Of a DNA stretch of 64,000 nucleotides, positions 1-48,672 are shown piece after piece. A program made the translations under genes and the position numbers. Origin of the DNA: Rosellinia necatrix (Eukaryota > Ascomycota > Sordariomycetes > Xylariales > Xylariaceae); the NCBI GenBank assembly GCA_021209875.1, contig JAGYVD010000005.1, positions 2,294,001 to 2,358,000 on the forward strand, given 5' to 3'. The notes beneath the pieces were generated by a model, which was not told where the DNA came from, did not search any database, and saw only the letters and a list, made by a program, of their open reading frames with translations. The first letter of the stretch is position 1, and each line of letters begins with the position of its first letter.

Positions 1-288
1 TTTTCGACGATTGTTTCTCTCTGTAATCGACTCTTCCCCACCCACCCGTCCACGCCCTCATTACGGAGACTCGTTTTGCTTCAGTCTACGGGTGCCTTTT
101 CACACAGTAGCGTAACGTCACGAAACAAAACGTGTTATGGCAGATGCGTGTTAAATTTACTGGATAGAGTGAGTGAGGAAAAAAGCAAAATATGTCAAAA
201 GTAGTCGAGGAAGACGGCAATGGGTTTGAGAGAGCGACTATATGTACTTATTTATATAAAATCGAAGCGGGGGAAAAGGGAATAAATG

Positions 289-20724: not shown

Positions 20725-21335
20725 ATGGCCCTGATTGGCTAAATGGATAGGTGGCCTGGCGGCCCCTGATTGGTTCCCCGGCTAGGTGGGTACAAGTACG
20801 AGGTGGTGAATGCGGTAGGCCAGTCATGTAGTGAATGGCCAGTGGTATGTGCAAGTAGGAATTCTGGCCGTCGGCCCTGTATGTAGTTCTCTTCTTTTCT
20901 CAACCTTAGTTTTTCTTCCCAATACATAGGTATAGTTGGGCTTCGCTCCAACTGCCGCTATTGCAGCCATCACACATCATAGCTGTAGGCCATGACACCC
21001 ACTATAATTATGTGACCAATAAGTTATATTTTAAACTACCTAGGTGTACTACCTACCTAGGTACTAGACGTTAATATTACTACTAACTAGGTAAGTATCC
21101 GCTCTCTATCTGGGTACTTTAGGTAGGTAAGGTAGTGAGTGAGTGTGCCAAGATAGTTGGATGCAAGAGGGGCATGGCAGTGTACATGGTTATAAGTGCC
21201 CAGGTATTCAGATTGCGATCGCCTGTTCAATAATTGCATACTTATCAATATATCCTGAGTTCCTACATACTTTGAACAAGCTTCACAGGTAAAACAGAAC
21301 TTGGATGCTAAAAGAGGGGAGTGGATTCAAGGTGG

Positions 21336-21344
21336 AAAAAAAAA
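21336..21344 (-). terminator. RNA polymerase III T9 terminator
   Basis: Nine Ts on the minus strand, beginning 7 bases after the discriminator base of the tRNA. This is a strong Pol III stop. Confidence 0.85.
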
Positions 21345-21351
21345 GTGTTTT

Positions 21352-21496
21352 TGACGCGAGCGAGGTTCGAACTGTATTCATGTTAGTTATAATCGACTTT
21401 GCATCACAGGATAGTTTGCCTTACCTCGCGAGACTTTCGTCAACAGGACTCTCCAAACACTTAAGCCTGTCGCCTTAACCACTCGGCCATCGCGCC
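21352..21496 (-). tRNA. tRNA-Leu(UAA) with two insertions
   Basis: A class II tRNA read from 21496 down to the discriminator A at 21352. The acceptor stem GGCGCGA pairs with TCGCGTC over 7 bp with one G-U. The D arm is GCCGAGTGGTTAAGGC. The anticodon stem ACAGG/CCTGT holds the loop C-T-TAA-G, with anticodon TAA at 21463-21461. An 11-nt canonical-position intron (21459-21449) follows base 37. The long variable arm contains the hairpin GAC-GAAA-GTC. The T stem GCGAG/CTCGC and loop TTCGAAC are perfect only if 53 nt (21424-21372) between bases 53 and 54 are removed. The A box (TGGCCGAGTGG) is intact, and the B box GTTCGAACC is rebuilt using the last base of the insert. A T9 terminator follows. 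The intact stems argue against a decayed pseudogene. Confidence 0.88.
21372..21424 (-). other. 53-nt intron-like insert in the tRNA T arm
   Basis: Read on the minus strand, the insert starts GTAAGG, contains the branch-site consensus AACTAAC 15 nt before its end, and finishes ATACAG. It therefore has every hallmark of the short spliceosomal introns found in the protein genes of this window. Its boundaries carry a one-base ambiguity (a G on both sides). It lies at tRNA position 53/54, not at the canonical 37/38 position used by tRNA splicing endonuclease. Whether spliceosome or endonuclease removes it is unknown. Confidence 0.75.
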
Positions 21497-22985
21497 CTAA
21501 TTGTGGTGTTGGAAAAATCCCCACGCATCCCACTATATCCCCTCGGCCAAGGAATTAGGTAATGGTATTAAGTGGCACAATAGTAGACATGGCGGGGTAA
21601 ATCGTGGCACTACATACTCCCAAATACTCCCCATACTAAATACTAAATAGTTCTATCCTATACGTATGTTTATTCTCAATTCGCTAGTGTGCATACTTGC
21701 GGCTCATTCTATCACGCCGCCCGGGCGTAGGCCTAGTGTCGGAGGCTATCAAACGTCGTGGCAGGAACATTTGTGATTGAGAATTGATCTTGCACCCTTA
21801 CCAAGCTCCTTTCGCTCGTGCAATCCGCCGTGACTAGTAGCACACCCGGAATGTATACGTTAATGCGCCTGGCCTATTTTCATCTACGGTAGATCATAGT
21901 ATGATGTGTGTGTTTTGTGGGCTCGGTACTTGGTGCTCTGTGCTCAGATTATGAGAATGTGAGTGAGGGTTTGGGAGTGTGTTTGGAAGTTTGTTTTAGT
22001 TTAAAACTCGATATAATGGTCTGTTGTCGATAACTAGACGCATCAAAAGTTGTTATGCTGGAATGGACCTAAATATATTCATCTTAACTGAACCTAGTAG
22101 AGTAGTCCTAGCCAAGCAGGCGAATATGGCGTAGAGTTCTTGCTGCTTTTGCTAAGGCTTTACAGGTACCTTACCAACAGTTTGTGTGTAAGTACGTGAG
22201 GTGTGGATAGCCGCTAGTATGGTGGTTGTTGGTACATGTCCACTGCGATTTGGCTAAATCGTTTAAAAAAAAAAAGCCGTTTCTCCCTTTGCATGGTAGG
22301 TTGGATAGCTAGCATGTGTGGCGAAATAGGTTAAACCCCGCAGGCGGTCGTGATAGCCTCACAAATTAGGTAGGTAGGCTTGATGGCACTGGTCGCCACA
22401 CAATTGAAATATAACTAGGTAGGTAGGTAGGTACTTCCTGAACGTACCTTGCTGAAAGTCCAGGAATTGCTGGAAGCTTGGCCTATATTGGTTAGGCACC
22501 ATTAGTTTATCCACTTCCATAAAACCCGAAATCTTAATTTGCCCGAACTTTTAGCCTTTTTTTCCTCCTCACATATTTCCCCTTCGCTGGAACTTAACTG
22601 TTTGAACTCGCCCAACGTCCTTTGGGCTTGTCCACTGGGTTTCCTTTGAAGTAGAACAATCAATTGCCTTTATAATCTCACCTTCGCTCGATCATAGTAG
22701 CATTGTGGGTTCGCTATGTGCAAACATCTTATTGGTTATTGCTTACGATGTTCACCACTTGGGAAATGAGGTAAATATGCCTATAGACATTACCTTTGCC
22801 ATCCAGGATTTGACACAAAAAACGCTGAGTAAGGTGGCCGGAGAAATGGTACACAGGAAGAAATGTTGGGACAAATTAAGCATATGTAGTAGTTACGGAT
22901 ATCATAGTAATAACCCAAAGTAGGTGGGGAGGTTGGTAAGTGAAATTATAGGCCCTCTTAAACGCTTCGACTCATGAAATCATCT

Positions 22986-46245: not shown

Positions 46246-48672
46246 CTAACGCCTTTTGGCTCTCGCTGCAGGTGCAGACTCGAAAGGATCGTCGGAAATC
46301 TCGTCATCACTAATTTCTAGTGGCTCCTGCTGGGTAGCTTTTTGTGAGAAATTCAATCTTGTTTGTCGTGTTCTCGCCGCAGAAGAGGTAGAGGCGGGAG
46401 CAACCGCGCGCGAGGAAGCCTGTGATCTTGATGGTTGCGATCGTGCAGCCGTAGCCCTGGTCGTTGTGGCGCGCTTAGGCGGTGGAGCAGGAGGGTCGTA
46501 ATTAGCATTACCCATGAAAATATCTTCGTCTCCATCCTCCTCCTCCTCCTCCTCCTCCTCCGCTTGTTTACGGCTACGCCCGCGACCTACAGTGGCTGCC
46601 TTCTTAGCTGGTGCTTTTGGGGCAGCCTTTGGGGCAGGCTTAGCCCGGGTAGCCGCTGCTTTTCGTCCCTTTGCCTTCGGCGCTGATGCCCCCTGATCAT
46701 CTTCTGCGATATCGCTCATCTCCTCGTCCTCATCATCAAGAAATCCTGTCCGCGTGGGCTTCCGCGTTCGGGTCGGGGGCTGTGTGGTTTGCGGTGTCTC
46801 TAGTGGTATTGCAGCATGATCGATTGCCTCCGGCTGATCCTCCCAAGGACCATCGAGGTCTGAGTCCCATTCTGCCGGTTTCGGTTTGTATACGAGCTTT
46901 GGTCCTCGTTTTAGCTGACCTGTGGCGAATTGGTGCTCAAATCTCTGTTTGATCCTCTCCATTGCGCTGTCAAGGTCTTCTTCGTTATCTTCCAAGGACA
47001 GCATCTGCTTGACTTGGCCTGACAGAGATTCGCTGACAAACTGTTCCATGGCGTGTTTGTCGTCCTTGTCGACAAACTGCGTTACCGCGTCGCCAAAAGG
47101 TGCTTGTGGAAGGATCTTGAGTGATTGGGCCTTTAAATATTCTTCTACCAACTTCGCAACTTTCACACTATCCATTTCAGCTAGACTAGCAACAACCTCT
47201 TCGGACAAGGCGTTGGCGGCCGTGGCACGTTCTATTTTGTAACACGTCAGTATGGTGGGCAAGTCGTCGTAGCAAATCGACTTACTCTGTACCGTCTTTT
47301 TTCGATAAAAGTGAACCACGTCGTTCGTGTTGGCCACCTTGTCCGAGAAACGATTAGAGAACCGCTGAGGATTCTCTATGTCATAGTGGCCCCCTTCGGG
47401 TGCCGTGTATTCAACCTTGAGGCGGATTAAGGGCCTTGGCCTTTCGATTTCATTCGCATCGCCTTCTTGCAGAGAGTCCCATTCCGCGTTGGCTTCTTCA
47501 ATCATCTCGTCCACCACGTCCATCAGCCTTCGGGTTAACTCCGGCCGGTTATCCTTCTTGTTTTCCAGGCCCTTGAACCTTTTGTCGGTGGCGAGAACTA
47601 TCTCGGCAGTGACAAACGGCCGGACGGTCTTTAAGCGATGCTTCTCGACAGCGAAGTCTCTGCCAGTCACGCTCACTACGGCGACATGTTTTGCGACGGC
47701 CTCGCCCGGTACCAGTGACGTAGCAACGGATGAGCCAGGCTGCATGACATGAAACCCCGTTTCGGGATTGTGTCGAGGATCGATGAGGCACTCATGCTCG
47801 TGACCCCAAACGACCAAGTCGAGCCATTCCGGCAGCATATTCTCGGGCAGGTAACTTGTAGCGGTATGCGCATGGTGATTCTGGTGAACGGCGAGCAAGT
47901 TGAACCAGTCGGCCGACTGCTGATTCGGTCGGAACCATTTTACTTTGTGATCACGAAAGTTCCGAAACATGCGCTCATCCCGTACGTTACTGATCCCGTA
48001 AAGCGCCAGCTTGGTTTGGCCTTTCTGGAGTAAGACGGGTTTCACGTCAATCTCGTCAACCTTGGGGGTGCGACCATAGTAGTTCACGAGGCCGGCAACT
48101 TGGAGCAGGTCAAGCGAGCAGTAATTCCCCTGGCCACTAGGATCGTCGTGGTTGCCATGAATAGAGAAGACGGGGATGGAAATGTTGATGTCTGGATCCT
48201 CGTAGTTGACGTGGCCGAAAGCGCTCGCGAAGACCTCGTTGGCGTCGCTTAGGAACTCAAGTTCACATGGCTTCATACCAAGACAGTTCTTTCGGAGCGA
48301 CCGCATGACATGGTACATTGACAGCCTTGACGGCTTGTTGTCATGGAAGAGATCGCCAGCAAGCAAGACCATATCCACCTGATATACTCGGTAAGCATAA
48401 CACAAACAGAACGTGCCTCCGCGAATCGCAGACTAGGCTAGGCCAGGTACGTACGTCTTCTGCCCGCGCCAGGCTCATGATCTCATCAAACGTTTTCCAA
48501 CTGTCATCTTTGCGGATGGCATCGCGCTCCTCGTAGCCCACATGATTATCCGTGGCGACGAGGATGCGAATCGTGTCTGCGCCTGATGCCGGGGTCGAGT
48601 AAGCTCAGCGCCCTCTACCTGGCCGCGGCAGCGAGCAAGGAGGAACATACCTGTCGATTGTGATGGCGGCAT
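46246..48672 (-). CDS. MRE11: MRE11, double-strand break repair nuclease
   Basis: Mre11 is the nuclease of the Mre11-Rad50-Nbs1 complex acting in DNA end resection, telomere care and meiosis. Exons 48672-48651, 48582-48455, 48378-47286 and 47231-46246 give 742 residues. All phosphoesterase motifs are present: D19 and H21 (VATDNHVG), D59 (LLAGDLFHD), N126 and H127 with D128 (IHGNHDD), and H residues in VHQNHHAHT and VVWGHEHEC. The Mre11 DNA-binding domain follows to about 480. The tail is disordered and carries an acidic E run ([18 protein letters not shown]) and several Arg/Ser/Thr-rich parts that may be methylated or phosphorylated. The third intron (47285-47232, 54 nt) is divisible by three and has no stop. 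Exon 1 encodes just seven residues plus one base. Confidence 0.93.

Follow-up and report, generated by a model that had tools for sequence, protein, structure and literature searches.

The tRNA-Leu(UAA) locus and its two inserts

The 64,000-nt stretch of DNA analyzed here (the window) is fungal, with an Mre11 frame 95% identical to a Rosellinia necatrix protein, and sits in a 49.1-Mb assembly of 12 contigs, one of which (C12) carries mitochondrial-type tRNAs. On the minus strand lies a tRNA-Leu(UAA) gene, with G1 at 21496 and the discriminator A at 21352, that is broken by two inserts. The features of the locus, in the order of transcription, are as follows.

21352..21496, minus strand: tRNA-Leu(UAA) gene with two inserts, 145 nt; Rfam RF00005 aligns at these exact ends, and ARAGORN reads the form without the T-arm insert
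21478..21489, minus strand: Pol III A box region TGGCCGAGTGGT, read by eye
21461..21463, minus strand: anticodon TAA (UAA), read in the loop CTTAAG and given as (taa) by ARAGORN
21449..21459, minus strand: 11-nt insert in the anticodon loop, canonical 37/38 region, of tRNA endonuclease type; its exact ends can slide
21425..21429, minus strand: T stem 5' strand GCGAG (49-53), from sequence reading and fold
21372..21424, minus strand: candidate mRNA-type intron, 53 nt, between T-stem G53 and T-loop T54 (GTAAGG ... AACTAAC ... ACAG)
21382..21388, minus strand: branch-site-like AACTAAC, 10 nt before the intron end
21364..21372, minus strand: Pol III B box core GTTCGAACC, read by eye; its first G is the last base of the intron
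21360..21371, minus strand: T loop and T stem 3' strand TTCGAACCTCGC (54-65), from sequence reading and fold
21336..21344, minus strand: nine-T run of the Pol III terminator type, with 7 nt between it and the gene end

Searching positions 21300-21550 (251 bases) with RF00005 at a lax threshold returned one match, 21352-21496 on the minus strand (E 0.00027), whose 28.8 bits fall just below the 29-bit cut-off of the model; at gathering level, Rfam reported nothing in the window. In this alignment the anticodon loop is enlarged, and the T loop measures 60 nt, i.e., 53 plus the normal 7. The alignment is a reading of the gene anatomy independent of the manual one, and its ends are those at which an initial annotation, made from the sequence, had rightly placed a tRNA-Leu(UAA) gene.

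ARAGORN found no gene in the window, missing the UAA gene with the T-arm insert in place. With the 53 nt left out, it reads a tRNA-Leu(taa) with a complete cloverleaf, a long variable arm (GAC-GAAA-GTC), a UAA anticodon and the discriminator A, and pairs every stem: acceptor (GGCGCGA/TCGCGTC), D stem, anticodon stem (ACAGG/CCTGT) and T stem (GCGAG/CTCGC). The earlier description of these stems as perfect or nearly so after removal of the insert is therefore borne out, the sole G-U in the acceptor (2-71) being common to all four Leu isoacceptors aligned (see below). The mature tRNA would be 81 nt long. The separate 11-nt insert in the canonical 37/38 region is also present as first described, and an anticodon-loop insert occurs in 12/12 of the other nuclear Leu genes found.

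The A box and B box were identified against what we take to be their consensus sequences. In the DNA the B box remains complete, as the G that ends the intron replaces G53, and an insert ending in AG at 53/54 would in this way leave the Pol III promoter intact.

Intron signals of the T-arm insert

The T-arm insert (GTAAGGCAAACT...TATAACTAACATGAATACAG, 53 nt) is located at 53/54 instead of position 37/38, where canonical eukaryotic tRNA introns are found. Its boundaries can slide up to 2 nt upstream with the product unchanged, since an AG precedes the insert and another closes it; GT...AG ends result only at the 53/54 setting. At that setting it starts with GTAAGG and ends in ACAG, as the initial annotation had it. 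The AACTAAC motif, which that annotation had put 15 nt before the end, ends 10 nt before the end of the intron and starts 17 before it. The insert shows the features of a U2-type intron, namely GTRAGN, a near-CTAAC branch site, YAG, and register with the exon boundary.

As a local point of comparison, the Mre11 gene (window 46249-48589, minus strand) has three introns, the third of which is 54 nt long and in frame, with the stop-to-stop frame reading through it. These introns, which were placed by comparison with the R. necatrix protein and whose branch sites were picked by eye, start with GTATGT, GTACGT and GTAAGT, carry the branch sequences CTTAC, CTTAC and CTGAC, and end in CAG, CAG and TAG, respectively. 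The claim that the tRNA insert shares its signals with the window's mRNA introns is hence correct only in broad terms: the Mre11 starts, branch sites and ends differ from it in detail. By its sequence, the insert appears nearer to the intron consensus than the Mre11 introns are, a comparison to be read roughly, since two of the three Mre11 introns miss even the loose branch pattern CTRAY and so provide a rough yardstick for the introns of this organism. In length (53 nt) it lies within the range of the introns read in this organism, with 53 and 60 nt for the introns of U6 and 54, 68, and 76 nt for those of Mre11, five introns only. A heuristic list of window mRNA introns drawn from open flanks was dropped as noisy (20 raw candidates vs. 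9 in the reversed control).

How readily such signals arise by chance was estimated with strict (GTRAG, CTAAC 8-14 nt before the end, and YAG) and loose (GT, CTRAY in range, and YAG) criteria, both chosen with knowledge of the T-arm insert. Among 4,000,000 random 53-mers of the local dinucleotide make-up, one carried the strict and 631 the loose signals. Among the 53-mers of the window itself (n = 127,894, both strands), the strict set occurs once, in the T-arm insert, and the loose set 22 times. When the length was left free between 40 and 100 nt, strict signals were found in 7 stretches of the window vs. 3 in the reversed control. The weight thus lies in the coincidence of the signals with a slot that is fixed by the tRNA structure.

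Copy number and integrity of the gene

We found 13 nuclear Leu genes with five anticodons (1 UAA, 2 UAG, 2 CAA, 3 CAG, and 5 AAG). The T arm is unbroken in 12 of them and broken only in the UAA gene. Allowing up to 3 mismatches, a pattern that combines the Leu D arm with TTAAG matched at eight places, all of them Leu genes (1 UAA, 2 UAG, 2 CAA, and 3 CAG; reversed control 1), and in a further D-arm pattern search 5/5 matches were AAG genes (control 0). Since the D-arm patterns recovered all five anticodons, the search reaches all five. One more D-arm/anticodon pattern had a single match, on C12 (control 2); the Leu(taa) of that contig (L005) is of mitochondrial type.

A Leu model recovered all 13 nuclear Leu genes together with the tRNA of locus L042 on C12; the UAA gene, with its insert, scored 68.3 bits against this model, which had been built partly from the UAA gene itself. 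A genome search for tRNAs returned 61 matches from the best 63 of 1701 candidates, and the UAA gene was not among them. The unbroken T arm (GCGAGTTCGAACCTCGC, up to 2 mismatches) had 8 matches vs. 5 in the reversed control, of which 2 are the Leu(CAA) genes and 6 are places without an ARAGORN tRNA; at these six, the Leu model gave no match at E up to 1 save a weak one of 15.9 bits in L093. No second nuclear UAA gene was found by the D-arm plus anticodon or the T-arm patterns, a kind of search that is not exhaustive and that a divergent copy could escape. The gene described here is the sole nuclear UAA gene that the pattern searches found.

Another D-arm plus anticodon pattern had two matches, the present gene and locus L031. 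The latter was rejected as a second UAA gene because it has no match to the Leu model at E up to 1; ARAGORN reports no tRNA there either, which says little, as it also misses the present gene. At L031 (C1:6958036, minus strand), a long T run comes after a Leu-like stretch of D arm that ends in TTTAA; some 150 nt beyond stand GGTTCGAGCC and a second T run, which may mark where a different Pol III gene ends. On C12 (187.7 kb), the same tRNA cluster occurs near 71.5 kb and again near 186.3 kb, a distance of 114.7 kb, and this contig is perhaps a circle of about 114.7 kb written out with overlap.

In the sister gene Leu(CAA), 2/2 copies found have an unbroken T arm, GCGAG-TTCGAATCTCGC, the very form that the UAA gene would take on GT-AG removal. 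These two copies (L037 and L038, at C1:4640129 and C7:983889) are both called tRNA-Arg(CCT) by ARAGORN, a misnaming due to its placement of the anticodon-loop intron; the loop in the Leu(CAA) genes reads CTCAAG.

We aligned the mature UAA form with one copy each of UAG, CAG and CAA (AAG was not included), leaving out the anticodon inserts at points that let the stems pair. Of 92 pair cells, 98.9% are standard, the sole unpaired cell being in the UAG variable arm, and all 23 pairs of the UAA form are standard; 15/23 pairs show changes on both sides among the four isoacceptors. Standard pairs combined with two-sided changes suggest that the UAA tRNA is distinct and paired, and not a recent copy of another Leu gene. 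No stem of the copy shows decay.

UUA codons are in use in this organism, with 5, 9 and 9 of them in the frames of the Mre11, Tcp11-domain and inositol polyphosphate kinase genes of the window, respectively. A cytosolic reader of UUA is consequently needed, and the UAA gene is the only one seen. Leu(CAA) might also read UUA by way of a modified C34, in which case the UAA gene would be less essential.

U6 and other structured RNA genes of the same genome

A U6 search, in which the best 47 of 2321 candidates were scored, identified two genes, both with an intron.

C8:2023303-2023455 (L043:1501-1653), minus strand in L043: U6 gene 1, with an mRNA-type intron of 53 nt ending in GCAG
C4:1597208-1597367 (L044:1501-1660), plus strand in L044: U6 gene 2, with an mRNA-type intron of 60 nt ending in ACAG

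The two genes are interrupted at one and the same site, after AGAAGAT, by introns that start with GTGAGT and carry GTACTAAC followed by 10 nt to the end. An ACTAAC-to-end distance of 10 nt is thus common to the two U6 introns and the tRNA insert. A B-box-like stretch lies inside each U6 intron (one reads AGTTCGAACC). U6 is described as a Pol III spliceosomal RNA (PMC10484740, in excerpt). The U6 genes having mRNA-type introns, the spliceosome must act on a Pol III RNA if U6 is to be made here; splicing of Pol III transcripts is then to be expected, and the tRNA asks nothing new of the spliceosome. The analogy with U6 that had been drawn from other fungi holds within this very genome.

Among other structured RNAs, the SRP RNA measures 286 nt on a 293-position model, and U3, at 313 nt on a 274-position model, has its extra bases in the middle. 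Derivation of the T-arm insert from the 53-nt U6 intron was considered and dropped, as the two share 25/53 ungapped identities and only 8/27 in the inner part. The 161-nt locus, compared with the genome at E up to 10, matched only itself, so that no repeat or introner family was found. A genome search for other T-arm introns with the pattern CTAAC-6..25-AG-TTCRANNC gave 42 matches vs. 41 in the control, i.e., no excess, and the phenomenon therefore stands on one gene. When the 42 places (41 loci and the UAA gene) were processed by script, 2/42 had a pairing T stem that ends before a GT, namely the UAA gene and L085 (GTTGGG, 96 nt). L085, as a candidate for a second T-arm intron, has no Leu-model match at E up to 1 and was judged a chance occurrence.

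Predicted precursor fold and proposed removal of the inserts

In the predicted lowest-energy fold of the isolated 145-nt precursor, the tRNA stems are kept and the insert lies in the T loop, with a pair probability of 0.88 for the T stem. The GT of the 5' splice site is predicted to pair with the last two bases of the T loop (probabilities of staying unpaired 0.00 and 0.15), whereas most of the branch site (0.55-0.92) and of the 3' end (0.46-0.83) is open. With its 5' splice site paired, the precursor would have to be spliced before it folds as a tRNA or in competition with that folding, and in this model the pairing would count against easy splicing of the folded precursor.

We consider it probable, at about 0.8, that this is a working and apparently single-copy nuclear tRNA-Leu(UAA) gene, whose Pol III transcript would carry two introns of different kinds. 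Pol III would transcribe the gene, and the precursor could adopt a cloverleaf whose enlarged T loop contains the intron. Removal of the 53 nt would fall to the spliceosome, within the nucleus, and the spliceosome must do likewise for U6 in this organism. The 11 nt would be taken out by the tRNA splicing endonuclease and ligase, and the finished tRNA would read UUA codons. Of the two alternatives first put forward, the one invoking both splicing machineries is the better supported by sequence, given the sole UAA gene found, the stems free of decay, and the U6 introns in the same genome.

The other of those alternatives, that the tRNA splicing endonuclease cuts the T-arm insert at a non-canonical site in the style of archaeal or red-algal ectopic introns, the mRNA-like ends being incidental, now seems quite unlikely. 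This enzyme must act on the UAA transcript anyway for the 11-nt insert. Position 53/54 is among the sites listed for introns of archaeal tRNAs, and nucleomorphs and Cyanidioschyzon are described as having non-canonical ones (PMC4090602, in excerpt). However, enumeration by hand-set rules (bulges of 2-4 nt, G-U allowed) gave at most 2/4 central bulge-helix-bulge pairs at the T-arm junctions in three settings, whereas 3/4 central and 3/3 outer pairs form at the anticodon insert of the same RNA. The poor bulge-helix-bulge makes spliceosomal removal the better reading for the T arm and leaves the endonuclease for the anticodon insert; cutting by the endonuclease would moreover leave the full set of spliceosomal signals to chance.

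It is very unlikely that the gene is dead, a UAA pseudogene with a chance insert whose true counterpart lies elsewhere and was missed. Short D- or T-arm insertions in eukaryotic tRNA genes for the most part affect a single gene among many synonymous ones, and the genes that carry them are usually regarded as pseudogenes, nucleomorphs and a red alga being the exceptions (PMC4090602, in excerpt); our search for a second gene was limited to patterns and best-scored candidates. Against this, the pattern searches gave no second UAA gene, the matches to the unbroken T arm being Leu(CAA) genes or places with no ARAGORN tRNA and, apart from the weak L093 hit, no Leu-model match at E up to 1; no position is unpaired in any UAA stem, the terminator and B box are intact, and UUA codons are in use. 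The chance that Pol II transcribes a longer RNA, which is spliced like an mRNA and from which the tRNA is cut out afterwards, is remote. Such a route would explain how the spliceosome gains access without Pol III, but the locus has both internal promoter boxes (A and B) and a terminator of nine T, and U6, a Pol III RNA (PMC10484740, in excerpt), has the same kind of intron here, so that Pol II is not needed.

Relation to known introns and implications

Spliceosomal introns are held to belong to the RNAs of Pol II, with U6 as the well-known Pol III exception, while tRNA introns are held to belong to a separate enzyme. Spliceosomal removal of the T-arm insert would make the UAA gene a novel type of host for an intron of familiar type. 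A close parallel is the U6 intron of fission yeast and other fungi. It too is of spliceosomal type, measures about 50-60 nt, interrupts a small Pol III RNA and contains or touches a B-box sequence. In the U6 genes of this genome the B box lies inside the intron, whereas in the UAA gene it straddles the 3' splice site. Unlike U6, the host of this candidate intron is a tRNA that also needs the tRNA endonuclease. The introns of fungal U3 snoRNA are similarly of mRNA type and in a small structured RNA, though of another class. According to a 2017 paper (PMC5832005), U3 and U6 are the sole small structured RNAs for which frequent interruption by introns is known.

Among tRNA introns, the canonical eukaryotic ones at 37/38 are of the same kind as the 11-nt insert of the UAA gene; the 53-nt insert differs from them in lying in the T arm, in its GT-AG and branch signals, and in having no drawable bulge-helix-bulge. 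The ectopic introns of archaea, nucleomorphs and red algae resemble it in position, 53/54 being listed for archaea, and in that two or three introns per tRNA gene are described; the archaeal ones rest on bulge-helix-bulge type sites, and those of the Guillardia nucleomorph are 3-24 nt long (PMC4090602, in excerpt). The word "spliceosome" is absent from this tRNA-intron review. Among the open-licence matches listed, titles and the starts of abstracts mention no spliceosomal intron in a tRNA gene, which does not establish its absence from print.

It is likely, judging from the sequence, that an essential tRNA is here made by way of both the spliceosome and the tRNA endonuclease, with the decoding of UUA tied to pre-mRNA splicing capacity and the intron able to settle only where its AG end restores the B box. 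For gene finding, the non-canonical intron step of tRNAscan-SE 2.0 is described for candidates of the archaeal search model (PMC8450103, in excerpt), so that genes of the UAA type could be missed in fungi. If our reading is true, this is a blind spot of tRNA gene finders, and the UAA gene could look absent from fungal genomes. It would also suggest that the spliceosome can act on any nuclear RNA bearing the right signals, make the locus a natural case of intron gain outside mRNA, by reverse splicing or otherwise, and tie the decoding of one codon in this fungus to splicing.
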